From NCBI GenBank assembly GCA_918272565.1, contig CAKJYW010000022.1:1-53844 (forward strand): DNA of 53,844 bases, in the 5' to 3' direction. The translations under genes and the position numbers were made by a program. Under the pieces are notes generated by a model that was not told the DNA's origin, made no database searches, and saw only the letters and a list, made by a program, of their open reading frames with translations. This stretch comes from Bacilli bacterium. Lineage in GTDB: Bacteria; Bacillota_I; Bacilli_A; ML615J-28; CAG-698. Positions 1 to 15,770 of the stretch are shown here, one piece after another. Each line of letters opens with the position of its first letter. Positions within the stretch are counted from its first letter, which is position 1.

Positions 1-3000
1 TGAATAGATTGTATTGAATGCTGCTTTTTCATCATCAATTAATGCATCATAAGCATCTCTTGCTGCTCTAATTGCAGCTTCGTCAGTTAATTTAACTTTT
101 GAAGCAGCTGGTAAATCAGCGATTAAATCAGCAACTGGGTCGATTACTGCAAAAAATTTCAATTCTGCAATTCTAGTTTCTAAAGCAGCGATTTCATCGT
201 AGTTGCTAACTAATGCCTTTTGACGAGCAGTCAAATTATTATAGGCTTCTTTTGCGGCTTTAACACTAGCTTCATCAGAAATTTGAACACGTTTAACAGC
301 AGGTAAAGCATCAATCATATCTTCAACGATACCAGCAGCATATTTATCTAAAGCTTCAGGTAATGCAAATAAGTCTTCTAAAATACCTTCTTCATTCCTA
401 CCACTAAAGTTACCGATAGCAGCAGTCAATACATAATATGTTGCTTTGTTAGCGATGTCTGGATTTTCTACTTCTGTATATGGATATACACCATTAGTAT
501 CAGCAATACCCCTAGTATAGTAAGTAGTGTTAGGATCTAATGCTGTAGCAGTTTGATCCATTAATTCATAGTAACCAGCAATAGCGCTAGCAGCATTAAC
601 GATTCTAGCAAGGTTATTATCACTTAAATCGTTCATCTTTAGATTTTGATTAATCAATCCTAAAGAATAGTAAGCTCGTATTAATTCATCAACTTTACCA
701 GTATAAGATAATTTATCATTGTACTTCATCAGATCATCATAAGTGGATTGATAATTGCCTAAACCGTAATTCGTAACATCTCTAGCAGATGGCAATATAG
801 AAGCAGTTTCTTTAATAGCATTAGCTAACGTAACAGTTCTAGCCATTAATTCTACTCTATCAATAGTTTGAGCTAATAATGCGTTGAAGTGAGCATCAAT
901 ACCCCAAGTGATAGTTCTATCGTCATTCTTAACATATTTGAATGACTGAGCAATATAAGCGACATCATCATTAACGTCTTCGCCGGCCCACTTATTAATC
1001 TTGTAATATAAGTCGTTAGCCCACTCAGTTTCATTAGAAAGGCCATAACCTACAACAACATATTCTTCATTTACTTTCTTGAAATATAATCCGTTAGCAA
1101 CAAATGCAGGTTCAGTTGTTCCATGAATTACTTGAACATAAGTGTTAGTAGGGTATTCTCCACCATTTAAAGTAGCAATCATAACTTTTGCAGCATTGAT
1201 TTCAACAGTTGTTTCATCAACTGTAGTAGCTTTCATGCTTAATAAATCAACAACAACTTTTAATAAATCTAATTTATGTTTAATCTTAGTGTTGATTAAA
1301 GCTTTTCCAGCATCACTTAGATCATTGTACTTCTTTAAAGTTCCACCATTAATAGAATGATAGCTATTATAAGTAACGATCTTATCCTTGTTAGATTCAG
1401 TTACTTTATCACTTAAAGCGATAATTTCATTTGCTAGATTGATAGCTGTTTCAATATAAGCTGTTTCTTTCTTAGCAAAGTTAAATTCTGCAATACCAGC
1501 AGTTGTAGCATAACCATTATCATATAATGCTTTTTGACCATCAGTCATTGAATCGTAGTTACGCTTAGCAGTAGCTAGTAATGCTTGGAATGAAGCACTT
1601 TCATAGTAAGCTTTAGCAGTAGCAGAATCTAGGTTAGCAGTAACAACGTTAGTAATATATTGATCTTTTACATTATTGAATAAACTTTCAGTTAAATCAA
1701 TAATTTCTGCTTGAGATACTAATTTGTTAGCAGCAACATTGATAACACGTTGTAATGCATTAGTAGCTCTAACAACTTCTTCAATTTGTTTATAACTTTC
1801 GTTCAGAGCATCTAATCCAGTCTTTAAACCTTCTATCTCTTCTAATTCAGTTGGACCCAAATCATTAAACGCAATAGAAACCCCATTAAAGTCAGCAAGT
1901 GTATTAAGATTATTGTATTCATCAGTAGTAATACCAGTTAATGCAGTGAAGTAATTTCTAATTACTATTACTTGATATTCATAATCACTTTCTTTATAAA
2001 AGCGAGCAACTAAACTAATATTACTATTATATGTGTATGTTCCACTTGTTACTTCTTCATCACCATAATACCAACCAAAAAATGTATATCCATCTTTTGT
2101 TGGAACTGGAAGGTTGAATGAAGAATTGTAATTAACATTAACTGTATTACTTTGTAATTGGTCTCCTCCATTTACATCTAATGTGATTGTATATGGATTT
2201 CCTGTCCATCTTGCAACTAATGTAATATTACTATTATATGTGTATGTTCCACTTGTTACTTTTTCATCTCCATAGAACCAACCATCAAATGTGTAATTAT
2301 CCTTTGTTGGAACTGGAAGATTGAATGAAGAATTGTAATTAACATTAACTAAATTACTTTGTAAAGCATCTCCGCCATTAACATCAAGTGTAATTGTATA
2401 TGGATTACCTATCCATCTTGCTTCAAGTGTAACATTTGATGTTACTTCAAATGTATTTCCAGTAATCTTCTCTTCTCCATTATACCAACCAGTAAGCATA
2501 TAATTTGTCTTTTCTGGAACAGGAAGGTTAATAACTGTACCACTAGTTACAAGTTGAGAATCAAAATCTCCTCCACCATTAGTGTTAAACACTACTTGAT
2601 ATTTTGTAGGCCATGTTGTAACTACATTATTAACATAATGCCAATAATTACCAGTTGCATTTGGTTCAGTATCACTTAAATAATAAACTGTAACCTTATT
2701 AGGAATATGGCTTAATTTATTAAACTGACTTTCATTTCCAGTGTAATAAATAGTATCAAAACTATCACAATAACTGAATGCCTCTAATCCAATTGTTGCA
2801 ATACTGCTTGGTAAAAGTAAAGTCTTTAAAGCTGTACAATATCTAAAAGCATCTGTTCCAATAGAAGTTACGCTACTAGGTATATCTAGATCGATTAATC
2901 CTGCGCATCCAACAAATGCTCCATCAGCTATTGTTATTACAGTATTAGGAATTACAGTGTTCTTACAACCTACAAGTAAGCTATTAGTTTCTTTACTAAT

Positions 3001-5652
3001 AATTGCATTAGAATTATCCCTTGAATCATAATTTGTATTATTTGCATCAACTGTGATAGCAACTAAATTAGGAGTATTAGCAAATGCTTTATCGCAAATA
3101 CTAATTACGTTACTAGGAATAATCAAACTAGTTAATCCAGTATTGCTAAATGCTTCTGCATTAATAGTAGTTAAGGATTCTGGGAATGTAACACTAGTTA
3201 AACTTGTACAATAACTAAATGCACCTAAATCAATAGTAGTTAAAGTGTCATTAAAGTTAATTGTAGTTAGACTTGTACATTTACTAAATGCATATTGACC
3301 AATTGTAGTAATACTTTCTGGTAATGTGATAGTTTCTAAACTTGTGCAATTGCTAAAAGCATTGCTTCCAAGTGAACTAACACCATTTGGTAAAACTAAA
3401 GATGTTAAAGAACTACATCCATAGAATGCACCAGCTCCAATTGATAAAACACTTGATGAAATTGTCAAATTAACTAAATTACTGCAGTTTTCAAAAGCAG
3501 ATGCATTAATCTTTTTAATAGTATTAGGAAGTATTACAGTAGTAATATTAGTGCAATTAATAAAGGCATTTCCTCCAATACTAATTACATTCTTATCTTC
3601 AATTTTACTAGGGATGTAAACTACTGCATCAGTTCCTTTAAACTTAGTGATTTCAACTGTATCACCATTAACCTGATACTCGTAATCACTTGCTTTATAG
3701 AAGTGAGCTACAAGTGTTAAATTACTTGAATAATTATATATTCCACTATCAACTCTATCACATCCATTAAACCATCCATCAAATGTGTAGTTTTCTTTTG
3801 TTGGAATAGGTAGAGTGAAAGTAGTATTAGAAACTACATTAATTGTTGAAGATTCTAATGGATCTCCTCCATTAACATCAAGAGTAACAATAAATGGTGC
3901 ACCCCATTTAGCTTTTAAAGTTACATTAGATGTAACCTTATAAGTTGTTCCCTCAATCTTTGTTTCTCCATTATACCAACCAAGGAATGTATAGTTTTCT
4001 TTAGTTGGTGTAGGTAAAGTAATAGTTGTTCCACTATTTACTGTTTGAGAAGCTATTTGATTTCCTCCATCAGTATTAAAAGTAACAGTATATTTAGTAG
4101 TGACAGTAGATGATCCTCCACCTCCTCCACCACTATTCTTTCTTTGCCATGTTGCTTTAACAGTTACATCTTCTGTTTTATTCCATGTTCCAGCTTCTAA
4201 TCTTGTCTCACCATAATACCAACCTCTAAAAGTGTATCCTTGACGAGTAGTTGTTTGTAATGTGAACTTCTGTCCATATGTTACATATTGAATGTTGTTT
4301 TCTAAATCAACACCACCATTAACATCATAGATAATCTTATAAACATTAGCTGTCCACTTAGCTTCAACACTAACATTCTTAGCTATATCCCATACACCAC
4401 TTTCAATTTTTGTTTCACCTTCAAACCATCCATTAAATGTAAAGCCAGTTCTAGTAGGTGTTGGAAGTGTGACAGTAGTGCCATAAGTAACTTCTTCGCT
4501 TGTTTTTCCTATGCTATCTCCACCATTAACATTAAATGCTAAAGTGTAAACATTAGCAGTCCATTTAGCTTCTAATGTAATATCACTAGTATAGTTATAT
4601 GCTCCATCAGTTACTTTATCATTACCTAAATACCAACCTTCAAACTTATATCCATGACGTCCTGGAGTTGGTAATGTGTAATTCTTTGTATATTTAACAT
4701 TTATTTCTTTTTCAGTAAGACTATTTGCTCCATTTTCATTTAATGTAATCTTAAATGAAGCTAGACTCCAATGAGCGACAAATGTAGCATCACTAGCAAC
4801 ACTCCATTTACTTGATACAACTTTTTCATTATCTAGATACCAACCATCAAAAACATAACCAGCTCTTGTTGGTTCTGTTAATGTAAATGCGTCATCATAT
4901 ATTACTTCTTGTTTATTATTTTCTAAATTATCTCCACCATTAACATCTAAAGTTAATGTGTATGTGTTTGGAGTAAAATGAGCTTTTAATTCTACATTTT
5001 CTGCTAATTGCCATTTACCATTATCTATTTTTTCATTTTCTAAATACCAGCCTTCAAATGTATATCCATCTTTATAAATGATAGGTAGAATAAAATCAGT
5101 ACCATATAATACTTCTTGAGGATTTACATTTTCTAAATCAAAAGAAATTATATATTTATTAGGAGTAAACTTTGCAATAAGTTCAACATCTTTATCTATA
5201 TTCCACTTGCCATCTTCAATTTTTGTATTATCTAAATACCAGCCATCAAAAGTGTATCCTTCTTTTTCTACAAAAGGCACACTAAAACTAGAGTCATATT
5301 CTATTTCTAACTCTTTAACTTCATCACCATTCTTTAAAATGACTTTATATTTATTAGCACTCCATTCTGCTTTTAAATTAATATCATTCTCTATATTAAA
5401 CACTCCGTTATCACTAAACTGTTCGCCGTTATAGAACCAGCCTAAAAAACTGTACCCAGTTCTTGATGGTACAGGAAGTGTAAAATCACTAGAGAGAGTA
5501 GCAGTTATAGATTTTGGAGAGACATCTCCTCCATTTGCATCTAAATTAATAGTGTACTCTTTATTGGCAACTGGACTATTCTTGCCAATTGTGCAACTAG
5601 TCAAAATAAATAAACTAGCAAATAAAAATAAAATAGATAATAATCTTTTCAT
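1..5652 (-). CDS. Giant InlB-repeat / BspA-LRR lipoprotein (C-terminus beyond window)
   Basis: Open frame from ATG at 5652 to the window start, at least 1884 residues. The N-terminus is a lipoprotein signal with lipobox LTSC (Cys20), so it is exported and membrane-anchored. I count nine Listeria-Bacteroides (InlB B, Flg_new) repeats at about residues 30-655, each with a GW(Y/F) core and an NGGD start, and a poly-Gly linker near residue 509. A BspA-type (LRR_5) leucine-rich block follows at about 660-985, then three more InlB repeats at about 1010-1222. A long helical region follows, ending in repeats with an A..AYxxLTxxQKALV pattern. The RBS is GGAGG just before ATG. InlB and BspA repeats are known from surface adhesins, so adhesion or matrix binding is the likely role; the ligand is unknown. 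The true C-terminus, and any anchor, are not visible. Confidence 0.9.
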   Translation of the reverse strand, partial: MKRLLSILFLFASLFILTSCTIGKNSPVANKEYTINLDANGGDVSPKSITATLSSDFTLPVPSRTGYSFLGWFYNGEQFSDNGVFNIENDINLKAEWSANKYKVILKNGDEVKELEIEYDSSFSVPFVEKEGYTFDGWYLDNTKIEDGKWNIDKDVELIAKFTPNKYIISFDLENVNPQEVLYGTDFILPIIYKDGYTFEGWYLENEKIDNGKWQLAENVELKAHFTPNTYTLTLDVNGGDNLENNKQEVIYDDAFTLTEPTRAGYVFDGWYLDNEKVVSSKWSVASDATFVAHWSLASFKITLNENGANSLTEKEINVKYTKNYTLPTPGRHGYKFEGWYLGNDKVTDGAYNYTSDITLEAKWTANVYTLAFNVNGGDSIGKTSEEVTYGTTVTLPTPTRTGFTFNGWFEGETKIESGVWDIAKNVSVEAKWTANVYKIIYDVNGGVDLENNIQYVTYGQKFTLQTTTRQGYTFRGWYYGETRLEAGTWNKTEDVTVKATWQRKNSGGGGGGSSTVTTKYTVTFNTDGGNQIASQTVNSGTTITLPTPTKENYTFLGWYNGETKIEGTTYKVTSNVTLKAKWGAPFIVTLDVNGGDPLESSTINVVSNTTFTLPIPTKENYTFDGWFNGCDRVDSGIYNYSSNLTLVAHFYKASDYEYQVNGDTVEITKFKGTDAVVYIPSKIEDKNVISIGGNAFINCTNITTVILPNTIKKINASAFENCSNLVNLTISSSVLSIGAGAFYGCSSLTSLVLPNGVSSLGSNAFSNCTSLETITLPESITTIGQYAFSKCTSLTTINFNDTLTTIDLGAFSYCTSLTSVTFPESLTTINAEAFSNTGLTSLIIPSNVISICDKAFANTPNLVAITVDANNTNYDSRDNSNAIISKETNSLLVGCKNTVIPNTVITIADGAFVGCAGLIDLDIPSSVTSIGTDAFRYCTALKTLLLPSSIATIGLEAFSYCDSFDTIYYTGNESQFNKLSHIPNKVTVYYLSDTEPNATGNYWHYVNNVVTTWPTKYQVVFNTNGGGDFDSQLVTSGTVINLPVPEKTNYMLTGWYNGEEKITGNTFEVTSNVTLEARWIGNPYTITLDVNGGDALQSNLVNVNYNSSFNLPVPTKDNYTFDGWFYGDEKVTSGTYTYNSNITLVARWTGNPYTITLDVNGGDQLQSNTVNVNYNSSFNLPVPTKDGYTFFGWYYGDEEVTSGTYTYNSNISLVARFYKESDYEYQVIVIRNYFTALTGITTDEYNNLNTLADFNGVSIAFNDLGPTELEEIEGLKTGLDALNESYKQIEEVVRATNALQRVINVAANKLVSQAEIIDLTESLFNNVKDQYITNVVTANLDSATAKAYYESASFQALLATAKRNYDSMTDGQKALYDNGYATTAGIAEFNFAKKETAYIETAINLANEIIALSDKVTESNKDKIVTYNSYHSINGGTLKKYNDLSDAGKALINTKIKHKLDLLKVVVDLLSMKATTVDETTVEINAAKVMIATLNGGEYPTNTYVQVIHGTTEPAFVANGLYFKKVNEEYVVVGYGLSNETEWANDLYYKINKWAGEDVNDDVAYIAQSFKYVKNDDRTITWGIDAHFNALLAQTIDRVELMARTVTLANAIKETASILPSARDVTNYGLGNYQSTYDDLMKYNDKLSYTGKVDELIRAYYSLGLINQNLKMNDLSDNNLARIVNAASAIAGYYELMDQTATALDPNTTYYTRGIADTNGVYPYTEVENPDIANKATYYVLTAAIGNFSGRNEEGILEDLFALPEALDKYAAGIVEDMIDALPAVKRVQISDEASVKAAKEAYNNLTARQKALVSNYDEIAALETRIAELKFFAVIDPVADLIADLPAASKVKLTDEAAIRAARDAYDALIDDEKAAFNTIYS
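2010..2423 (-). repeat. Tandem near-identical 207-bp InlB-repeat units
   Basis: Two adjacent units inside the giant lipoprotein gene are nearly identical at DNA level. The stretch starting at 2017 recurs at 2224, and the stretch at 2101 recurs at 2308; both offsets are exactly 207 bp, or 69 codons. The other InlB repeats in the gene are much more diverged, so this pair looks like a recent in-frame duplication. Confidence 0.85.
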
Positions 5653-5697
5653 TTTCGCTCCTCCATTTAGAAAAAAATAAATATACGCATCTTTTTT

Positions 5698-5726
5698 ATT
5701 ATACTTTATTATGAAATCGATTTCAA
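5698..5726 (-). promoter_or_regulatory. Sigma-A type promoter of the giant lipoprotein gene
   Basis: On the minus strand, -35 TTGAAA (5726-5721), a 17-bp spacer and a perfect -10 TATAAT (5703-5698) lie about 45 nt before the ATG at 5652. Confidence 0.75.
5712..5725. promoter_or_regulatory. Perfect palindromic cre-like operator
   Basis: TGAAATCGATTTCA is a perfect 14-bp palindrome that satisfies the CcpA cre consensus TGNAANCGNTNNCA at every fixed position. It covers most of the -35 and the spacer of the giant lipoprotein promoter, where bound CcpA or another LacI-family protein would block RNA polymerase. It could also affect the divergent gene at 5832. Confidence 0.6.
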
Positions 5727-5831
5727 TATAATAAAACACTATTTAACATTAGTTTTTAAATGATTATTTTCATTAATCTTTACTAATATTTATTTTTATG
5801 TTAAACTTTTTTTGGAAACGGGAGGAAAAGA

Positions 5832-6431: not shown

Positions 6432-6438
6432 AAATGAA

Positions 6439-6470
6439 GGATTCACTTCAAAAGTGAATCCCTTTTTTTT
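6439..6470. terminator. Bidirectional intrinsic terminator
   Basis: A 10-bp stem GGATTCACTT / AAGTGAATCC (6439-6448, 6452-6461) with a 3-nt loop is followed by a run of eight T. It lies between convergent genes ending at 6431 (+) and 6478 (-). The A-rich left flank allows use on the minus strand. Confidence 0.85.
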
Positions 6471-6477
6471 ACTAATC

Positions 6478-6768
6478 TTAATCTTTTAGATTAAATTCAA
6501 AGCTAAAGCCAAAAGCATTACCATCATATTTATAAGTAACAGTTTCGTCTTTCTTAATTAAATATTTGTTTTCTTTATCATAATAGAAGATAGAGAAAGA
6601 AACGGTGTCACTTAAAACTTCATTGATAGTGATGAAGGCTCCTTCTACTGCTGTTGAGTGCTTCTTATTTACTTCTTCTAATGGAATAGAGTTTTCGAAA
6701 TTACCAAAACTCATCCCATAGCCATTGAAGCGCCTTATGCTTCCTTTATATTGTAACTTTAAGCCCAC
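6478..6768 (-). CDS. Small beta-rich protein, last gene of AAA-protease cassette
   Basis: 96 residues, probably from a GTG at 6768 that overlaps the end of the upstream gene by 23 nt; a shorter in-frame ATG at 6714 is possible. It has no signal peptide or membrane segment, so it is probably cytosolic. Alternating hydrophobic and polar residues predict a small beta-sandwich. The pattern around residues 48-94 (hydrophobic strand, FYYD, charged hairpin, aromatic strand) resembles the C-terminal half of the cassette's first protein (15036-15770), suggesting but not proving common origin. No known family is recognised. The overlap implies co-translation with the 142-residue protein. Confidence 0.6.
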   Translation of the reverse strand: MGLKLQYKGSIRRFNGYGMSFGNFENSIPLEEVNKKHSTAVEGAFITINEVLSDTVSFSIFYYDKENKYLIKKDETVTYKYDGNAFGFSFEFNLKD

Positions 6769-7174
6769 TCTTTAATTTCCCCCATTCGTTAACTACTATA
6801 GTGTAAAAGCCTTCCTTTATTTTTCTTTGAAAAACTAAGTCATTGTGATAAAGAGGAAATCTCTTACTTAGTGCATATCTATCAACAGTGTGCCAAGCTT
6901 CTTCTGCTGATTTTTCTAATACACTAACATAAACATAATTATCTTTAATTGCATGGATAACAAGCTCAAAGCTATTAGGAAATTCTACATGAACTGCTTT
7001 TTCTTTTCCTATTTTTTCTTTTAGGTCTTTTGTAGAAAAACTTTGTTCAAAGAATGGTTTAGTTGGATCATCTTTATAAAACTGAACTTTTATAGAAACA
7101 TCTTCACTATCCTCATATAGAAAGTTCCAACAATCAAAATACTTCTCATCCATACTTACAAATTTTTCATCCAT
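6746..7174 (-). CDS. Beta-rich hypothetical protein of AAA-protease cassette
   Basis: 142 residues starting 2 nt after the AAA-protease stop, with AAGGAG about 10 nt before the ATG at 7174; Met8 is a less likely start. There is no signal peptide. It is predicted to be mostly beta strands, with an acidic N-terminus rich in Asp and Glu. The segment around residues 70-130 (FELVIHAI, YVYVSVLEK, FYTIVV) has the same strand rhythm as the other beta-rich proteins of the cassette. No enzyme motif is visible and no family is recognised. Tight coupling to the AAA-AAA-protease gene suggests a partner, substrate receptor or regulator of that protein. Confidence 0.7.
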   Translation of the reverse strand: MDEKFVSMDEKYFDCWNFLYEDSEDVSIKVQFYKDDPTKPFFEQSFSTKDLKEKIGKEKAVHVEFPNSFELVIHAIKDNYVYVSVLEKSAEEAWHTVDRYALSKRFPLYHNDLVFQRKIKEGFYTIVVNEWGKLKSGLKVTI

Positions 7175-7176
7175 AA

Positions 7177-10100
7177 TTATTTGTTCTCCTTATATTCTTT
7201 TTCTAGCAAACTCCAAACATAATCAATTGGACGTGCATAATTAATCTCTTCAGTAATTTCAGCTCCATGTGAGATAGCTGACCCACAGAATACTCCTAAA
7301 ACCTGAGATGTTTTTTCGTCAATTAGAGGTGAACCACTATTTCCGCCTTTTGCTTGAATGTCTAAATTGATTTGAGCTAGCATCTTGCTATTCTCTTTTT
7401 GGAATGAAGTAATTTTACCTTCATTGATTGACATTTCATCAAATCTAGAAACACCAAATGGATAGCCCATAATATAAACTTTATCAAGCTTTTCGTTTAC
7501 GTTATTGCAAGGAGCTAAAACTAAATAATCAAACACTTCATCGCCACTTGTTTCAATCTTACATAAAGCTACATCGGCTTTTTCATCGATAGAAACGACT
7601 TTTGCATCGTAATTTAGATCAATATAGCGATTATGGTGGGTAATTCTACGTCTAGCCACAATTTTATCTATTCCTTTTACGCAGTGAGCGCAAGTTAAGA
7701 AATAGCCATCATTAGTAATTATAAATCCTGTTCCTTCTCCAACCCTATCACCACTCATCTTTAAAGCTAAAATGGCTTCACTCATTTCATTCTTCTTCTC
7801 ATTAAATGGTGACGCTTTAAAATCTTTCAAGTTATTTAGTAATACTTCAGGGTTAAGCTTAGGAATAGTGATTTCGCTCTTTTCGCTCTTTGATATTTCA
7901 TCAAATTCTTCTTTACTAAATACAGCTTTAATATCTTCTAAATCTAATTCCTTAGAATTGATATCTCCGCCAATTTGTCGCATACGACCAGCGTGTTTGA
8001 TTTGAAGCTTTGATAAAGACTCTCTTAGAGTTCTAACATTTGCAAAATTTGGTTTATTCCTTTGAATAGAAACAAATTTAACGAAAAGTTTTAGGTCTTC
8101 GTCATTCATCACGTAACCTTCACGCTTTAAGAATAGGCGAGCGATCTTTTCAAGTTCCTCATCGCTATAATCTGGAAATTCAAGTTCAAACTTAATACGT
8201 GATTTAAATCCAGGGTTTAAATCATATAGTTTCTTCATTTCACTAGTATAACCAGCCAAAATTACACAGAATTCACCACGTCTATCTTCCATGGCTTTAA
8301 GTAATTCCGCAATTACTTCCGGTCCAAAGTCACGTTCTCCACCATAAGCTAAAGAGTATGCTTCATCAATATATAAAACTCCACCCATCGCTTTATCGAT
8401 TATATCACGGGTGATAATAGCACTTTGTCCGATGTATTGACCTACTAAATCACGTCTAGTTACTTCTAAGAACTTGCTAGTTCCTAGGATTCCTTCTTGG
8501 CAAAGAAGTTTTCCAATAATTCTAGCTACTTCCGTTTTACCTGTACCAGGATTACCAGTAAAGGACATATGGAAGTCAACTCTTTTACCTCTATTTATAG
8601 CAAAATAGGCAATCAAATCATCTACTGTTTCTTTAATCTTTTCTAAACCAACTAATTCATCTAGTTTCTTTCTTGCTTCAGATTGATAGCCAGTCTTTTG
8701 ATCGATAAAAGCGATGTCATTTTCTAAAACGTAGACATCAACATCATCTTTGATGATCGTTTTATCATCAACAAGCTCTGTTCTAACGTTTTGAATGATA
8801 ATTACTTCTTCTAAAATAGCGATCGCAGCTGTTGCATTGATGTTATTACCATATGACTTAGATAGGAAGATAACATCAAGTAGCCTATCAAGAGCATCTT
8901 TATCAATGTAATATCCTTTTTCTTTAACTTTAATCTTTAAGATTTCCCCTAGTTCATCTCTAGTAAAATCTTTGAAATTAACTCTAAAGCGAATCTTATC
9001 TTGGAATAAATCTTTGTGATTTTCTAATATTTGATTGATATTGTATTTATTATCACACAAAATGAAGCAAGTATTGTGATCTCCTGCCATAAGGTTAGAT
9101 AAGGCTAAAAGTCCTTCTCTAACATTAGATAAATTGAGGCCTTCTAAATAATGTAGGTCGTCAATTAGAATTACTCCACCATATCCCTCATGATAAAAAT
9201 CATTCAGATTGGTTGTTGTAACGCCAGTCGTGCTATCAAACAGCTCTTTTGCACTAGTTTCACTAAAGGTGTCTCTATCAATTGCCCCATATTTAAACAA
9301 AACTTTAGCAATCAACCTACCAACAGTAGACTTACCAACTCCATTTTCTCCACTAAATGCAATATTTTTATAAATGCTTCTTGTATCATTCTTTTCAACA
9401 TAGGCTTTGATGCGCTTGAATTCCTTCTTAGCATCTTCTTGACCAATTAGATGCATCATTTGATATTCAGGATTTGTTGTATCATCAATTGCTCTATTCG
9501 GATGTTTCTTTAATTCAGCTTGCTCAAATTCCTTTTTAGCATAATAATAATCAGTCCAACCATTTCCTTCATCAAAAGAAAGTTCACTTAAATATCTAAT
9601 TCTAGCACATCTATCAGTGTCTAATACGTCTCCTGTACTTGAATCACATAAAATAACTTCTTCACCTTTAATTGTGATAATAGCAGATGATGAAAGCTTG
9701 TTACCATCTTCTTTTAAGATAGTAACAACTGTAAAGCCATCATCCTCAATTTGAACTTTTGGACCATCAAATTTATTCTTTGTAAGATTAAATACCATGT
9801 AATAATCATCAAATTGATGCATTTGATAACCACTATTGTTACCTTTTTCAAATTTAATGATCTTTCTTTGACCATTCTCATCACTAATTAGACCGATACC
9901 AGTAGCAACATCTTCCTCAAAACTAATCTGAGATAGACCTGCAAAATCAAGTAACTCTTTAATGTTTTCGTATTTTAATTCTAAAGGATAATTGATTCTC
10001 TTATCACTCTTAATAGGATTTTTAACATTAAACTCTTTAGGAACAGTTACTTCCTCATCAATAAATCCCTCATCATCGTATTTCCTAAATTTAAATAAGT

Positions 10101-10488
10101 GAGATAAGCCATCATAATAAACAGCATAACCTATTTTATCTCCAGGAAAATTATCACGATAAATTTCAAAACTTGAATCTTTTAAGCAGATATATAGAGT
10201 TGTATTAAGGTCACCTTTTTTACATAGAGTAATCCTAATATCACCATTTTCTAAAATATCAGTATATGGATAAATTATTTCTCCATTATCATATTTAGCA
10301 AACCTAGTTTTAAATTTAGCTACATTGATATTTAGTCCATTTGGCTTCTTTTCTTCATTAAATTCACCAAAATTATAAGAATCTCTCTCTTTTATATACC
10401 CAAAGAAAGGTCCTTCTGTTTTAGAATTAAAATCGCCAAAGCAATTGTCACTTATCTTTTCCCATTTCTTAGAAATATTAGTTCCCAT
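7177..10488 (-). CDS. AAA+ / AAA+ / trypsin-like protease fusion (1103 aa)
   Basis: Four parts are visible. Residues 1-330 are beta-rich, perhaps with degenerate MORN-like repeats. The first P-loop AAA+ module (345-570) has Walker A GENGVGKST (380-388) and Walker B ILIDD near 440-444. The second, of CbbX/SpoVK/EccA type (610-860), has Walker A GNPGTGKT (645-652), Walker B VLYIDEA (704-710) and an arginine finger near R764. The C-terminal trypsin/HtrA-like protease (900-1103) has an intact triad: H935 in TCAHC, D972 in ADVALC and S1051 in GNSGSP. No signal peptide or membrane segment is seen, so it is probably a cytosolic ATP-driven or ATP-gated protease. Its ATG overlaps the upstream stop as TAATG, with GGGAGG before it. 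HtrA-like proteases normally act outside the cytoplasm, so fusion to two AAA+ modules is unusual. Role unknown; conflict, defence or quality control are candidates. Confidence 0.9.
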   Translation of the reverse strand: MGTNISKKWEKISDNCFGDFNSKTEGPFFGYIKERDSYNFGEFNEEKKPNGLNINVAKFKTRFAKYDNGEIIYPYTDILENGDIRITLCKKGDLNTTLYICLKDSSFEIYRDNFPGDKIGYAVYYDGLSHLFKFRKYDDEGFIDEEVTVPKEFNVKNPIKSDKRINYPLELKYENIKELLDFAGLSQISFEEDVATGIGLISDENGQRKIIKFEKGNNSGYQMHQFDDYYMVFNLTKNKFDGPKVQIEDDGFTVVTILKEDGNKLSSSAIITIKGEEVILCDSSTGDVLDTDRCARIRYLSELSFDEGNGWTDYYYAKKEFEQAELKKHPNRAIDDTTNPEYQMMHLIGQEDAKKEFKRIKAYVEKNDTRSIYKNIAFSGENGVGKSTVGRLIAKVLFKYGAIDRDTFSETSAKELFDSTTGVTTTNLNDFYHEGYGGVILIDDLHYLEGLNLSNVREGLLALSNLMAGDHNTCFILCDNKYNINQILENHKDLFQDKIRFRVNFKDFTRDELGEILKIKVKEKGYYIDKDALDRLLDVIFLSKSYGNNINATAAIAILEEVIIIQNVRTELVDDKTIIKDDVDVYVLENDIAFIDQKTGYQSEARKKLDELVGLEKIKETVDDLIAYFAINRGKRVDFHMSFTGNPGTGKTEVARIIGKLLCQEGILGTSKFLEVTRRDLVGQYIGQSAIITRDIIDKAMGGVLYIDEAYSLAYGGERDFGPEVIAELLKAMEDRRGEFCVILAGYTSEMKKLYDLNPGFKSRIKFELEFPDYSDEELEKIARLFLKREGYVMNDEDLKLFVKFVSIQRNKPNFANVRTLRESLSKLQIKHAGRMRQIGGDINSKELDLEDIKAVFSKEEFDEISKSEKSEITIPKLNPEVLLNNLKDFKASPFNEKKNEMSEAILALKMSGDRVGEGTGFIITNDGYFLTCAHCVKGIDKIVARRRITHHNRYIDLNYDAKVVSIDEKADVALCKIETSGDEVFDYLVLAPCNNVNEKLDKVYIMGYPFGVSRFDEMSINEGKITSFQKENSKMLAQINLDIQAKGGNSGSPLIDEKTSQVLGVFCGSAISHGAEITEEINYARPIDYVWSLLEKEYKENK

Positions 10489-12740
10489 TACTTTTCCTCC
10501 CTTTGTTTTATAGATGAAAAGTAATTGAAAGCACTAATGAATAGTTTCAATCCCTTTAAATAACCTTGTGACTTAAGCAAATGGATACCCATCTCAAGTC
10601 TATTTAAATAGTCATTTGGATAAATTCTACCAAAGTACATGTAGATTGCTCCATAGACTTCAGGGTAATAACAATACTCAATGTCAATGATAACACTAAA
10701 CATAATTGGCTCTAAGTAAGATGATAGTTCCTTATTAACCCATCTATTTTCACCTAAGAAAACGTAAGTCTTTAAAGCTAAATAAGCATACATTACCCTA
10801 ATAAAGACATTCTCTTCTTCTTGGTATTTACTACTATATAATCTTACTTTTTCTTTTAGCATCCTAAAATCAGGATTTTCTTTCTTAAGTTCTCCTAAGA
10901 TTAGATCAAGTTCATTAACTACATCTTCGTTACCATTATTTAAAACAAAATCAACAATCGGACAAACATTATATTGATCTAACTCATCTTTAAAGTTACT
11001 ATTAACTAAGGCACCATTTTCATCCATCACTTCAGCAGCTAGAGTAATTAGTTCTCTTTGAAGATTATTAAACTCATCTTCTTTAAATAGATGAGCAAGG
11101 CATCCAGCTAAAGGAACAAATACTCCATAACCATCAGCTGTAGCGTTTAAAACCTTAGTTTGATAGTCATAAGCTGTATTAATGTACCTACAAACGATTC
11201 GTTTAAACATTCTTCTTGATTTTGAAGCGATTAAATATAATAAATATTTATTTGTTAGAATGTTATCAATAGATGAGTAGTTTGTAGCAGACTCGGCGAT
11301 GACTGTGGCTCTTTCAACAAATGAAAGCATGAAAGATTCTTTATCTGATATTTCTTTCTTATCAAATTCTTTGTAGCTTTCTAATGTTTTACCAAATGAA
11401 GCAATCTCTAAAGCTAACCTATCTAAAAGCACATCAAATATCGCATTTTTAACAAGGTTCTTCTTAGCTATTTTATTATTAATGCCGATATCATTTAAGT
11501 AGATATCTTTATCAACTGAATAAGTTGATTTCTTATTGTAAATATATCTAGTGATTTCTACTTTATCAAACTCTTTATAAATATAATCGATAGCATCAAC
11601 TAATCTTTTTTCATAACGACTAGTTACGTATCCTGTTAAAATCATCGCATTGGAGCCGATAAAATCTTTGATAGTTTTATCGCTCATAACTAGTCTATTA
11701 TCTTCAAGACAAGCAAAAAACTCTAGGAATGATGAAATCTCTTCTTTTTCTTTTACTTCTATTTCATCATAATTAATTAAATATTTGTTTTCTTTATTTA
11801 ATAAATATCTACCTGAATTAATAACTTCATCTAAAGTTAATCCAAAATTAAACATATAAAGGTCGATTAAGCCTTCACTAAAAATAGCTTTTCCTTTTTC
11901 TGATAACTTCTTATAGAAATCATTAAAGATATAGAATAAGATTTCTTCAGTGTTATATTTAGAAAGCATTACTTGTAAAGTGCGATTATAATCATCTATA
12001 GGGCAGTAATTAAGGATGAATTTAGCTACATAAAAATAATCATTTAGTTTTAATGTAGGAGTTGCAAGGAGTAGTAACTCATCGCTTAACTTAGCACCAC
12101 CCATTTCCATTAATTCTTTAAATAATAATTTAGGATTAGATATATCTTTTTCAAATTCAACAGTATTTAAATATTCACTTAACTGTTCTTTTTGTTGTTT
12201 ATTGTTAGTGATTAGAAAAACATGTAAGTTTTTAGGTAAAAACCTCTTATCAAACACAAAATGACGATAGAAAGTAAGTGAAAAGTCATTATCATAAGGT
12301 AAATCAATATTATTTATTAAAATGTATAATGGTTTATCTAACTCTAATGAATAAAGATCAGTCTTTAAAATACCTAATAGATTATCATAATATGTTTCTA
12401 CATCAACTTTTGCTTCACATTTAGGTGTGAAAGAGTAATCACCTTCATAATGAATATTAAATTCATCTAATTTCTCATATATCTTTTTAACAAAGAAAGG
12501 CGCAGGAAAAGATGAGGAATAACTAATATCACTAAAATCGATAAAAATCTTATTTCCTTCTTTTTTGTTTAGCGCTTCTTTAAAGAATTCATCTTCATAT
12601 GTTTTTGAATTCAAATAAACTAAAAGTGCTTCTCTTTTTAATTCTTCTAAATCAATGATTTTATCTATCTTTTTTTTCAAATAATCATTATTAGAAAAAT
12701 AAGAGCTTCTTTTTAATAATTCTTTTATTTCTATTTGCAT
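10488..12740 (-). CDS. Large STAND/AAA-like protein with degenerate P-loop
   Basis: 750 residues, no signal peptide. The N-terminal 220 residues look like a STAND/NACHT-type fold: strand KIFIDFSD followed by an SYSSS turn and a helix, then a Walker-B-like strand LYILINNID near residue 150 and a sensor-like strand LHVFLIT. No GxxGxGK[ST] Walker A is present where one would be expected, around residues 36-60, so ATP binding is probably lost. The remaining 500 residues are helical and may form a repeat scaffold. The stop overlaps the AAA-protease start (TAATG), implying coupled translation and a likely complex. Its own ribosome site is weak and it follows a hairpin, so its level may be lower than that of upstream genes. 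The fold is inferred by eye; the reading frame is certain. Confidence 0.8.
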   Translation of the reverse strand: MQIEIKELLKRSSYFSNNDYLKKKIDKIIDLEELKREALLVYLNSKTYEDEFFKEALNKKEGNKIFIDFSDISYSSSFPAPFFVKKIYEKLDEFNIHYEGDYSFTPKCEAKVDVETYYDNLLGILKTDLYSLELDKPLYILINNIDLPYDNDFSLTFYRHFVFDKRFLPKNLHVFLITNNKQQKEQLSEYLNTVEFEKDISNPKLLFKELMEMGGAKLSDELLLLATPTLKLNDYFYVAKFILNYCPIDDYNRTLQVMLSKYNTEEILFYIFNDFYKKLSEKGKAIFSEGLIDLYMFNFGLTLDEVINSGRYLLNKENKYLINYDEIEVKEKEEISSFLEFFACLEDNRLVMSDKTIKDFIGSNAMILTGYVTSRYEKRLVDAIDYIYKEFDKVEITRYIYNKKSTYSVDKDIYLNDIGINNKIAKKNLVKNAIFDVLLDRLALEIASFGKTLESYKEFDKKEISDKESFMLSFVERATVIAESATNYSSIDNILTNKYLLYLIASKSRRMFKRIVCRYINTAYDYQTKVLNATADGYGVFVPLAGCLAHLFKEDEFNNLQRELITLAAEVMDENGALVNSNFKDELDQYNVCPIVDFVLNNGNEDVVNELDLILGELKKENPDFRMLKEKVRLYSSKYQEEENVFIRVMYAYLALKTYVFLGENRWVNKELSSYLEPIMFSVIIDIEYCYYPEVYGAIYMYFGRIYPNDYLNRLEMGIHLLKSQGYLKGLKLFISAFNYFSSIKQREEK

Positions 12741-12776: not shown

Positions 12777-12806
12777 AAAAACTCTTCTTCATAGAAGAAG
12801 GGTTTT
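12777..12806 (-). terminator. Intra-operon attenuator-like hairpin
   Basis: Minus-strand stem AAAAC-CTTCTTC / GAAGAAG-GTTTT around a short loop runs into a T tract, between the 220-residue and 750-residue genes. It resembles an intrinsic terminator but has cassette genes on both sides, so partial termination is likely. Confidence 0.55.
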
Positions 12807-12808
12807 AA

Positions 12809-13471
12809 TTAATCAAACATAACATTTGGATTTAATAGATTTGGAGGTGTCCAAGTAATTCCTTTTTCAGCAAGGTATTCTTGTTTTAGACTCCAAGTTT
12901 CAAAGCAGCTACCCATTCCGTGATATTTTCTGTTTTTATCGATTTTCTCTTCAACCTCATCAATAACAGCTAAATATTCAGGGCTCATTTCAACAGGGTC
13001 ATTCTTTAATGTTCTTCTTGATTTCATTCTCTTTTCAAAGATTTCATCAATTTTTTCATCCTTTAGTAACCCGCTGCCTTTAACCAATTCTTTAATATCT
13101 AAGCAGTCATCATCAACAAAGAAATTACGGAAACGTAAAAGATCAGATAAAAGGCTACTTGCATCTTCCTTTATTTCTTCAATCTTATATATTTCATAAA
13201 CCTTAATCATCACTTCTAGTGCTTTCTTTAAATAGTCAGCTACAATACTCATTCTTGTGAGTGTTTTATACTCTGTAGCTAAAAACATATAGTTTTCATA
13301 GGCATAAAGAAGTGAAGCTTCCTCGTCATCAATATTACGATTAATTAACTCATCGATTTCTTTTAAATCTTTGATGTCACGGTATGTTGCTGCGGCGTAT
13401 TCGTGCTCTTTTCTTGAATTAATGTTATTAATCAATTTTTCAATTTTTTCTTGTATTAAAGCATCAAACAT
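12809..13471 (-). CDS. Helical hypothetical protein of AAA-protease cassette
   Basis: 220 residues starting at ATG 13471, which overlaps the DUF1963 stop (TAATG) with GGAGG upstream, so the two are translationally coupled. The sequence is strongly helical with many Leu, Lys and Glu. Segments around residues 40-110 suggest TPR-like or coiled-coil packing. The C-terminal 40 residues are different: aromatic and proline-rich (MGSCFETWSLKQEYL, then TWTPPNL). No signal peptide and no catalytic motif. I do not recognise a family. Coupling to the YwqG-like protein suggests a working pair. Confidence 0.75.
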   Translation of the reverse strand: MFDALIQEKIEKLINNINSRKEHEYAAATYRDIKDLKEIDELINRNIDDEEASLLYAYENYMFLATEYKTLTRMSIVADYLKKALEVMIKVYEIYKIEEIKEDASSLLSDLLRFRNFFVDDDCLDIKELVKGSGLLKDEKIDEIFEKRMKSRRTLKNDPVEMSPEYLAVIDEVEEKIDKNRKYHGMGSCFETWSLKQEYLAEKGITWTPPNLLNPNVMFD

Positions 13472-14031
13472 TATGAGAAATCCTCCACAATCTTAACATC
13501 TTTGAAATTCTTCTTGTCTTTACCAAAGAATAAATAAATCATTCCATCGAATGTTGGGAATAAGCCCATTTCATCATTATCCATTGGGTCAAGTTGGAAT
13601 AATAACTCGTCTGGTTCTTCACTATATTGCCAATCACCAGGGCAACCAAGTAGCTTGTTACCAGTGTCGCTCTCATCACATAATTCGAATTCAATTAAGA
13701 AGTCTTGTGTGAAGCTTTCAAAGTCAGGAATAGATGCATTGAAGTCTTCGATAACCTCTTCTGGATCTTCTTTAGAATACTTAACGATAGGTTTAAGATC
13801 GTAGATTCCATTTTCAGTTCCTAAGAAAAAGTACAAATAACCTGTGTGAGGTAACTTATTATCTTTATCTAAATCCTTGATATCCTCTAACTTAATTTGC
13901 ATCAAAAAAATCGCATCATCAGGTAGTTCATCCATCATACCTTTAGGAAGTGTAGGATTACCTAACATCTTAGAACAACCTAAATCGTAATCTCCAATAG
14001 CTTTTTTAGTTTTAATTTTAATTGCGTTCAT
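13471..14031 (-). CDS. YwqG-like (DUF1963) protein
   Basis: 186 residues with AAAGGAGAT before the ATG. It matches the DUF1963/YwqG pattern: KMLGNPTLPKG near the start, a strand with FLMQIKLEDI, GYLYFFLG, then LLGCPGDWQY, LLFQLD and a final GMIYLFFGKDKKNF strand. Family members are cytosolic and of unknown biochemical role; B. subtilis ywqG sits beside an LXG toxin-immunity locus. Here it sits between the 65-residue motif protein and the helical 220-residue protein, 2 nt from the first and overlapping the second. The family call is by motif; the role in the cassette is unknown. Confidence 0.8.
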   Translation of the reverse strand: MNAIKIKTKKAIGDYDLGCSKMLGNPTLPKGMMDELPDDAIFLMQIKLEDIKDLDKDNKLPHTGYLYFFLGTENGIYDLKPIVKYSKEDPEEVIEDFNASIPDFESFTQDFLIEFELCDESDTGNKLLGCPGDWQYSEEPDELLFQLDPMDNDEMGLFPTFDGMIYLFFGKDKKNFKDVKIVEDFS

Positions 14032-14241: not shown

Positions 14242-15033
14242 TTATAAAGTTTCTTCTAAAGCATCTTCTAAATCGACATGTTCATATTCTTTTTCTTTGC
14301 CTTTAAACATCACATCAACAATTGATTTAGGATTTTTTATTATTATATTGCTATCATCGTTAACTTGAATAAAAATGTAATTATATCCACTTGTTGAAGA
14401 GTTTTCTTCATTATAACAATGTAAATAATATTTCTCATCGCTTGATAGCTTCACTCCATCAACATCCTTAAATTCATCAATTAGAATTGATGAATATTTA
14501 TATAAAGCATCTAAGAATGCTTTGTAATCATTTTCTTTTACTTCATTAAAGTTATATCTAGCGATTAAAACGTAAGGAACTCCTTCTTTTCTAAAGAATT
14601 CTAACTTAATAGGGAAGTTAGGTAAAACTGGTCTAAAACCATATTCTTTACAAAATCTCTCATATTCATTGTCTTCAACTTCTTGTTTTGTTTCTTCTTT
14701 ATTAGGATTTAAATGATCAAAAACAAGATTAACTTCTTTTTCACTCAGTGGTAGTGGATTAAAATTCCTATCAGTCTTACAAAGAAGCATAAATGATCCT
14801 ATATAATCATATCCTGAAAGGGCGCATGCTTTTTCGTTATTGACATCATCACCATTCCTATCAACAAATCCCATCAAGTGAACTCCAAGCTTATTAGATA
14901 ACTCTTGAGTTTTTGCGGTGTGGACTGTTGAAAGGGAAGAAGCGTTTAAAGCGCTATAGATATTATTAATATCCGAAAAATCAATTTCAATCTTAATTAT
15001 ATCTAAATGTCTTACTAGAATAGCATTTTCCAT
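14242..15033 (-). CDS. Hypothetical protein, weak DUF3846-like N-terminus
   Basis: 263 residues, cytosolic by sequence. The N-terminal ~105 residues (IYSALNASS, GFVDRNGDD, DYIGSFMLL, then LSEKEVN) weakly recall DUF3846, a small domain common in phage and plasmid genes, where an RNG-type turn precedes an IxG strand. A charged linker (~110-125) leads to a second alpha/beta domain with the strands YVLIARYNF and YNYIFIQVND, and the protein ends in an acidic tail. The ATG at 15033 lies 2 nt after the upstream stop. It is the second gene of the cassette. No catalytic residues can be assigned, and the DUF3846 resemblance is only a suggestion. Confidence 0.7.
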   Translation of the reverse strand: MENAILVRHLDIIKIEIDFSDINNIYSALNASSLSTVHTAKTQELSNKLGVHLMGFVDRNGDDVNNEKACALSGYDYIGSFMLLCKTDRNFNPLPLSEKEVNLVFDHLNPNKEETKQEVEDNEYERFCKEYGFRPVLPNFPIKLEFFRKEGVPYVLIARYNFNEVKENDYKAFLDALYKYSSILIDEFKDVDGVKLSSDEKYYLHCYNEENSSTSGYNYIFIQVNDDSNIIIKNPKSIVDVMFKGKEKEYEHVDLEDALEETL

Positions 15034-15035
15034 AA

Positions 15036-15770
15036 TTAGTATCCTTTTTTAATAGAAAATTTTGTACTTCCATCAATTACTAATTCTACTTCTATTGACC
15101 AATACCATGATTCATGATCATACCTAGTGGCGTATCCCCCACTCCTTGTTTCATAGTATAAAAATGTTTCATTGATTTCAAAACTATCTTTAAGTTCATT
15201 GAATTTCCCATGATTATCGCAATAATAATAGATAGATTCGATAGATATCTTAGAGCCATTAATCTTTGTAACATTTAAAGTGTATCTATTATCTATCATT
15301 AACTTTGCTTCATAAACAGTACCAATTTTAGCATTTACAGTTTCTTCTACATCACCATTTTTGAACCCTTCCCCACAAGAAGTGTACCCTTTTTCATGGA
15401 TTTGCAATTTGATATTGTTTTCATCAAAGTCAACTTCTTTTGTTTTGTAATTTAATTCAATCTTGAAATCTCGATAAACTGTTTCCCATAAATCTTTATC
15501 CCATTTACCTTTTTTATCTTCAATTATTAAAGACTTACCTTTTTCTAAGAGTAATTCCTTTTCTAAAGACCCTTCTTCACCATTAAACGAGAATTTTATG
15601 AGAATGTTTCCATCATCAAGTATCTTAATATCTCTAAATTTGGAATCTACATACAACTTATCAGATTCAAAAGAGATTTTTTTATGTATTGGATCAAATG
15701 ATCCTTGAAAAGTCTCCCCATCTGAATAAATCAGTTTTGAAGAGAGTTCGCTTACAATTGTAATTTTCAT
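15036..15770 (-). CDS. Beta-rich hypothetical protein, first gene of AAA-protease cassette
   Basis: 244 residues from an ATG with AAAGGAAC upstream. There is no signal peptide or membrane segment. It is predicted to be nearly all beta strands in two halves. The first half contains a SDGETFQGSF turn; the second (~145-244) has a strand-rich region with a YYYC stretch and an aromatic SWYWSIEVEL strand. The second half has a strand rhythm similar to the 96-residue protein that ends the cassette. There is no known family and no enzyme motif. A promoter-like -10 and a cre-like site precede it, so it probably marks the 5' end of the operon. Confidence 0.75.
   Translation of the reverse strand: MKITIVSELSSKLIYSDGETFQGSFDPIHKKISFESDKLYVDSKFRDIKILDDGNILIKFSFNGEEGSLEKELLLEKGKSLIIEDKKGKWDKDLWETVYRDFKIELNYKTKEVDFDENNIKLQIHEKGYTSCGEGFKNGDVEETVNAKIGTVYEAKLMIDNRYTLNVTKINGSKISIESIYYYCDNHGKFNELKDSFEINETFLYYETRSGGYATRYDHESWYWSIEVELVIDGSTKFSIKKGY

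Follow-up and report, generated by a model that had tools for sequence, protein, structure and literature searches.

Known bacterial AAA+ proteases use few peptidase folds, namely those of ClpP, HslV/proteasome, M41 (FtsH) and S16 (Lon). The SpoVK/CbbX/EccA clade is sister to the AAA domain of FtsH, and the published survey of this clade "found no evidence" of peptidase fusions or associations in it, unlike in other classical AAA proteins (Delerue et al., PMC10659427). In this work, a 53,844-nucleotide stretch of DNA from an uncultured gut bacterium of the Bacilli (assembly GCA_918272565.1, contig CAKJYW010000022.1; hereafter the window) was analyzed, where one open reading frame (7177–10488, minus strand) encodes an AAA+ motor of CbbX type and a trypsin-fold peptidase in a single chain, both with intact catalytic residues. 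No description of an AAA+/trypsin-type fusion was found in the literature searched, where absence is not proof of absence. Since the survey of the clade found no peptidase associations, the fusion is, as judged from its sequence, a predicted AAA+ protease variant that is new relative to that survey, and the earlier note on this DNA was right to call the combination unusual. If the prediction holds, AAA+ proteases would gain a new combination, in which a ring of CbbX type drives a peptidase of the trypsin fold, and the published generalization that the CbbX-type AAA+ clade works without peptidases would be broken.

Domain Architecture of the Fusion Protein

The fusion gene starts with ATG and runs without interruption for 1103 amino acids. 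From the reading frame and its Pfam, NCBIfam and PDB matches, it is composed of a MORN-like N-terminal domain (residues 1–335, 9484–10488), a degenerate first AAA domain, AAA1 (residues 345–600, 8689–9456), a second AAA domain of CbbX/SpoVK/EccA type, AAA2 (residues 603–849, 7942–8682), and a trypsin-fold, HtrA-like peptidase domain (residues 904–1095, 7204–7779), all on the minus strand; the chain ends 8 residues past the peptidase. Pfam AAA matched in two stretches (2.5e-22), the first domain at about 345–540. The two Walker A/B pairs that the earlier note had placed ahead of the protease are there, with Walker A motifs GENGVGKS (residue 380) and GNPGTGKT (645) and Walker B motifs VILIDD (439) and VLYIDE (704).

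AAA2 is of CbbX/SpoVK type, as had been proposed. NCBIfam models matched residues ~606–843 with 285 bits for SpoVK (3e-85), 266 bits for CbbX (3e-79) and 219 bits for EccA (1e-64), and the PDB match was CbbX (3syk/3zuh, 8e-56). These scores are all below the equivalog cut-offs of 423, 459 and 467 bits, respectively; therefore, the domain is neither SpoVK, CbbX nor EccA proper. The sensor 1 GY signature of the clade is present (ILAGY, G746 and Y747) and kept in all fusions. Among 30 relatives, N758 is at least 90% conserved and the sensor-2 arginine R819 (second arginine finger) is invariant. Position 762 carries K or E, and the arginine that is conserved is R764. Walker A, Walker B, the pore-loop YIG with Y685, GY, R764 and R819 are all retained, and the motor residues are invariant across the fusions.

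The claim of two AAA+ modules stood for their presence and less so for AAA1 as a full module. Pfam and the alignment show that its P-loop is present, with Walker A and IDD retained in all three orthologs. In the same three of three, the arginine finger is changed to K or L, the sensor-2 arginine to N and the pore-loop tyrosine to T, V or F. Because these residues are lost in all three, AAA1 should be a nucleotide-binding or structural ring rather than a motor.

Peptidase Domain and Cellular Location

The domain scan proposed in the earlier note upheld a C-terminal trypsin fold, with Pfam Trypsin_2 matching the full model across residues 919–1066 (2.5e-20). The catalytic triad is complete and each member sits in a trypsin motif: H935 in TCAHC (codon 7684–7686), D972 in KADVAL (7573–7575) and S1051 in GGNSGSP (7336–7338), on the minus strand. 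PDB matches of the domain were Deg/HtrA proteases, up to 1.7e-10. The label "HtrA-type" proved apt for the protease fold alone, since no PDZ domain was matched in the Pfam scan of the protein, there is no export signal, and the curated score for the Do family (HtrA/Deg) was 60 bits vs. a cut-off of 416. An ordinary exported HtrA was ruled out on the same absence of export signal and PDZ domain. In the tree, the fused protease domains form a single clade on a long branch with support of 100/100.

In alignment A5, no trypsin-bearing sequence departs from the H, D and S of the triad or from the GNSG oxyanion motif, deep branches included. Between G031 and G040, two genomes carrying the sister form described below, the protease domain has a nonsynonymous rate (dN) of 0.087 and a synonymous rate (dS) of 1.07, with a ratio (omega) of 0.08; the AAA domain is under similar constraint (omega 0.10). 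The protease domain is under selection for retention.

Neither a signal peptide nor a transmembrane segment was found in the fusion protein, with a maximum 19-residue hydropathy of 1.48, in agreement with the cytosolic protein proposed beforehand, and the fusion probably works inside the cell. The host genome has five further Trypsin_2 genes (open frames of 396–552 amino acids). At the four of these five loci that were read, the N-terminus is hydrophobic and lipoprotein-like, and for this reason the fused gene is set apart as cytosolic. The further Trypsin_2 genes form neighboring pairs (G000:C11:18843-20879 and C21:54896-56828).

Relatives and Distribution

Two full-length orthologs were found: L027 (JAFUFH010000050, roe deer omasum) with 1117 amino acids and 56% identity, and L028 (CADCNT010000012, RUG14810) with 1098 amino acids and 48%. 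In addition, the N-terminal 192 residues of the fusion lie at a contig end of the same-genus genome G002. A sister form of 875–876 amino acids, with MORN repeats (PF02493) at the N-terminus, a CbbX AAA domain and trypsin, and lacking AAA1, is present in G031 (L029) and G039 (L030), and as a fragment at a contig end in G040 (L031); these loci also carry the aliases L003, L005 and L004, respectively. An assembly artifact was ruled out, as two further gut Bacilli assemblies have the same architecture and another three carry the sister form.

The N-terminal domain of the fusion is a distant match to the MORN-repeat region of the sister clade in a one-to-one profile comparison (hhalign, probability 87.6%, E 3.5e-6). 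This match suggests a common plan for both forms, with a MORN-like start, an optional AAA1, a CbbX AAA domain and trypsin. In the AAA2 tree, both fused forms fall outside a well-supported group of other CbbX-type domains, and two standalone ATPases adjoin them, the branching among these being unresolved. A single fusion event followed by N-terminal change would fit the sequences, of which the AAA tree is no proof.

In the genomes searched, the fusion is confined to these gut Bacilli. A search of 395 class and 392 phylum genomes (overlapping sets) gave dual-domain matches in the known carriers only, and a peptidase domain (E 1e-4) was absent from all 29 other CbbX-type proteins sampled from the class; a widespread fusion was thus ruled out. 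The best 80 protease relatives in the genome collection included five fusions only. Most of the others look like ordinary HtrA-type proteins, and neither AAA domain was found in the non-fusion members of this set, which was scanned with short peptide patterns that more distant fusions could escape. The fusion was not found on phages, viral contigs or plasmids, so that a mobile or phage gene is not supported. In an empty-site comparison, the flanking peptidase gave only a 39% match, in one same-genus genome.

Other CbbX-type ATPases were seen in different settings. An 806-amino-acid membrane protein (L022:826-3246) contains two AAA domains of CbbX type; the gene after it, seen in the overlapping locus L012, encodes a multi-pass membrane protein resembling a conjugation channel component. 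At L111:1128-6512 (L107 region), a CbbX-type ATPase adjoins genes resembling relatives of DnaB-type helicases.

Operon and Associated Genes

The fusion lies in an operon transcribed from the minus strand in the order 263-amino-acid protein (14242–15033), DUF1963 protein (186 amino acids, 13471–14031), 220-amino-acid protein (12809–13471), 750-amino-acid protein (10488–12740), fusion and 142-amino-acid protein (6746–7174), with 1-base overlaps or gaps of 2–210 bases. The operon is conserved in three genomes: all six genes are present in unchanged order at L027, and four are visible before the contig end in G002. The first gene, of no known family, is conserved with 42% identity and the same order at L027. 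The DUF1963 protein (YwqG/TYPP superfamily; profile match 1.8e-8, 35.4 bits, cut-off 23, PF09234) is the most conserved operon member, with 74% to L027. Its partner, the 220-amino-acid protein, has the C-terminal motif W.LK..YL.EKGI.W..P..LNP.VMFD. The 750-amino-acid protein, also of no known family, is the conserved upstream neighbor and shares one base with the start of the fusion; its orthologs at L027 and L110 are 48–51% identical and in the same place, and a PDB search with it gave no match. The 142-amino-acid protein, directly downstream of the fusion after a 2-base gap, is 27% identical (E 3e-10) and in the same place at L027. No plasmid copies of the 750-amino-acid, 220-amino-acid and DUF1963 genes were found.

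Membership is uncertain for two flanking minus-strand genes. One encodes 96 amino acids from a GTG start (6478–6768) and overlaps the 142-amino-acid gene by 23 bases, with no homolog found at L027. The other encodes a 244-amino-acid protein (15036–15770), 2 bases upstream of the 263-amino-acid gene, with no Pfam match and no homolog among the L027 reading frames upstream of its 263-amino-acid gene. A terminator-like hairpin follows the operon (6437–6463, minus strand). Another, at 12784–12800 between the 220- and 750-amino-acid genes, could lower transcription of the 750-amino-acid gene and the fusion. Positions 1–5739 encode a surface lipoprotein of great length that combines 12 Listeria-Bacteroides (InlB B-type) repeats with leucine-rich repeats of BspA type and runs off the window end. 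Its sequence character shifts after the repeated YKESDYEYQV unit, where a repeat collapse in the assembly is possible.

For the order, 43 genomes were compared: four of the five with the fusion (the fifth being 71% complete) have a strong DUF1963 ortholog, as against none of the other 38, two of which (G038 and G042) gave weak matches. Fisher's test for this co-occurrence, calculated without phylogenetic correction, gave p = 4e-5. DUF1963 orthologs also occur in cis in the L027 genome and in trans in the L028 genome, bringing the fusion genomes with a strong ortholog to six of seven. In the L028 genome, the fusion stands alone, and the DUF1963 gene (56%) and the 220-amino-acid gene (44%) are located elsewhere, immediately adjoining a 1095-amino-acid DUF4062 protein. 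In G031 and G039, DUF1963 (43%) is also elsewhere and adjoins a 461-amino-acid protein, whose C-terminus matches the 220-amino-acid protein (32% over 93 amino acids, E 6e-7). Since the pair accompanies the fusion even when encoded elsewhere in the genome, we consider it the best candidate for the client or adaptor of the fusion. A chaperone-like, peptide-binding role has been proposed for the TYPP superfamily, which includes DUF1963 (PMC4275035).

One base after the fusion at L028, there is an unrelated ABC transporter with an FtsX-like permease domain (L028:10677-13028). At L159:6627-11112 (G528, contig C17), a 1095-amino-acid DUF4062 protein, with DUF4062 as its only Pfam match, lies directly upstream of DUF1963 and 220-amino-acid-like genes, possibly as a conflict operon. 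Homology between the 750-amino-acid protein and the DUF4062 protein was considered and is not supported, with no detectable relation.

Proposed Mechanism and Alternative Explanations

The explanation we favor, which we hold to have about an even chance of being correct, is that the fusion acts in the cytosol as an AAA+ serine protease on a single chain, with a CbbX-type motor whose ring would remodel or thread a dedicated target that the C-terminal trypsin sites then cut. AAA2 would form a hexameric ring, hydrolyze ATP and pull the target by its Tyr685-Ile-Gly loops, while AAA1 would bind nucleotide without hydrolysis and gate or stabilize the ring. The MORN-like domain would dock a partner, and the trypsin domains, at the C-terminal exit face like the peptidase of FtsH or Lon, would cut the remodeled target. 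In evolutionary terms, a CbbX/SpoVK/EccA motor would have gained a trypsin-fold peptidase, giving an independently evolved, cytosolic, ATP-driven AAA+ serine protease with a client or adaptor module of its own that contains DUF1963, a proposal that we consider evenly balanced between true and false. The domain order, the residues, the selection on the protease, the operon and the co-occurrence with DUF1963 are observed; we infer the ring, the coupling to ATP and the identity of the target. The client is directly testable, because CbbX-clade motors usually serve just one dedicated partner, and candidates within the operon are few.

Several points weigh against this protease. The hexamer geometry, the position of the peptidase with respect to the pore and any effect of ATP on cleavage are predictions. 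HtrA proteases form trimers, which have to be reconciled with a hexameric ring, and CbbX-clade motors are known for remodeling rather than degradation. In addition, the Fisher test ignores phylogeny and concerns two genera.

A conflict or cell-death protease is the main alternative, though a tentative and rather unlikely one. The AAA modules would then be an ATP-dependent switch with a likeness to STAND proteins, and on a trigger sensed by the N-terminal domain or the 750-amino-acid protein, trypsin would make a single limited cut, in the DUF1963/220-amino-acid pair or a host target, for instance. The patchy distribution of the fusion points this way, as does the DUF4062 protein beside the pair in the L028 genome, DUF4062 being reported as a TIR-like NADase in anti-phage defense (PMC13174449); conflict systems, too, couple trypsin-like domains with NTPases (PMC7159879). 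However, no PADLOC family fits the whole fusion or its operon partners, and since only partial domain matches were obtained, a known anti-phage or conflict system was rejected. No defense island was seen around the window operon, neither the fusion nor the partners searched turned up in phage-like or plasmid form, the 750-amino-acid protein is not detectably related to the DUF4062 protein, and a full AAA2 motor with a pore-loop tyrosine exceeds the needs of a switch.

Alternatively, the CbbX-type ring might activate or assemble one partner complex that trypsin trims, with neither threading nor bulk degradation. The characterized clade members CbbX, SpoVK and EccA are indeed dedicated chaperones with narrow targets (PMC10659427), and the chaperone-like, protein-binding role proposed for DUF1963/TYPP proteins (PMC4275035) would suit such a complex. 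Nevertheless, remodeling by itself leaves the protease fusion unexplained, and the pore-loop tyrosine is equally suited to threading, so we regard this dedicated remodeler with a processing protease as improbable. That the trypsin domain merely binds peptides and has no useful catalytic activity is highly improbable, given the invariance of H, D, S and GNSG in all trypsin-bearing sequences, down to the deep branches, and the dN/dS of 0.08.

Comparison with Known Systems

The fusion resembles the CbbX/SpoVK/EccA clade in the best matches of AAA2 and in its sensor 1 GY, arginine finger R764, sensor-2 arginine and pore-loop tyrosine, and differs from it in bearing a C-terminal peptidase and in scoring below the equivalog cut-offs. 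With HtrA/Deg (Do) proteases, which give its best protease matches, it shares the trypsin fold and the GFIIT.DGY..T.AH and GNSG motifs. Unlike these, it has no PDZ domain or signal peptide, the protease is C-terminal, behind the AAA domains, the motifs are TCAHC and GNSGS vs. TNAHV and GNSGG, and the fused domains form their own long-branched 100/100 clade.

Compared with the TYPP superfamily (YwqG, TSR4, PDCD2), the operon DUF1963 protein is a member (PF09234) that differs in being partnered with the 220-amino-acid protein, and no link of the superfamily to an AAA+ protease appeared in the literature searched. Trypsin + NTPase conflict proteins (vWA-MoxR ternary systems, Avs1) also couple a trypsin-like peptidase to a cytosolic NTPase, whereas the fusion has a classical AAA motor rather than STAND, MoxR or vWA, with no system-level family match. 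As in FtsH and Lon, an N-domain, an AAA+ module and a peptidase follow one another in the same order on one chain. The fusion differs from both in that it is not membrane bound, has two AAA domains and carries a trypsin-fold serine peptidase in place of the M41 metallopeptidase or the S16 Ser-Lys peptidase.
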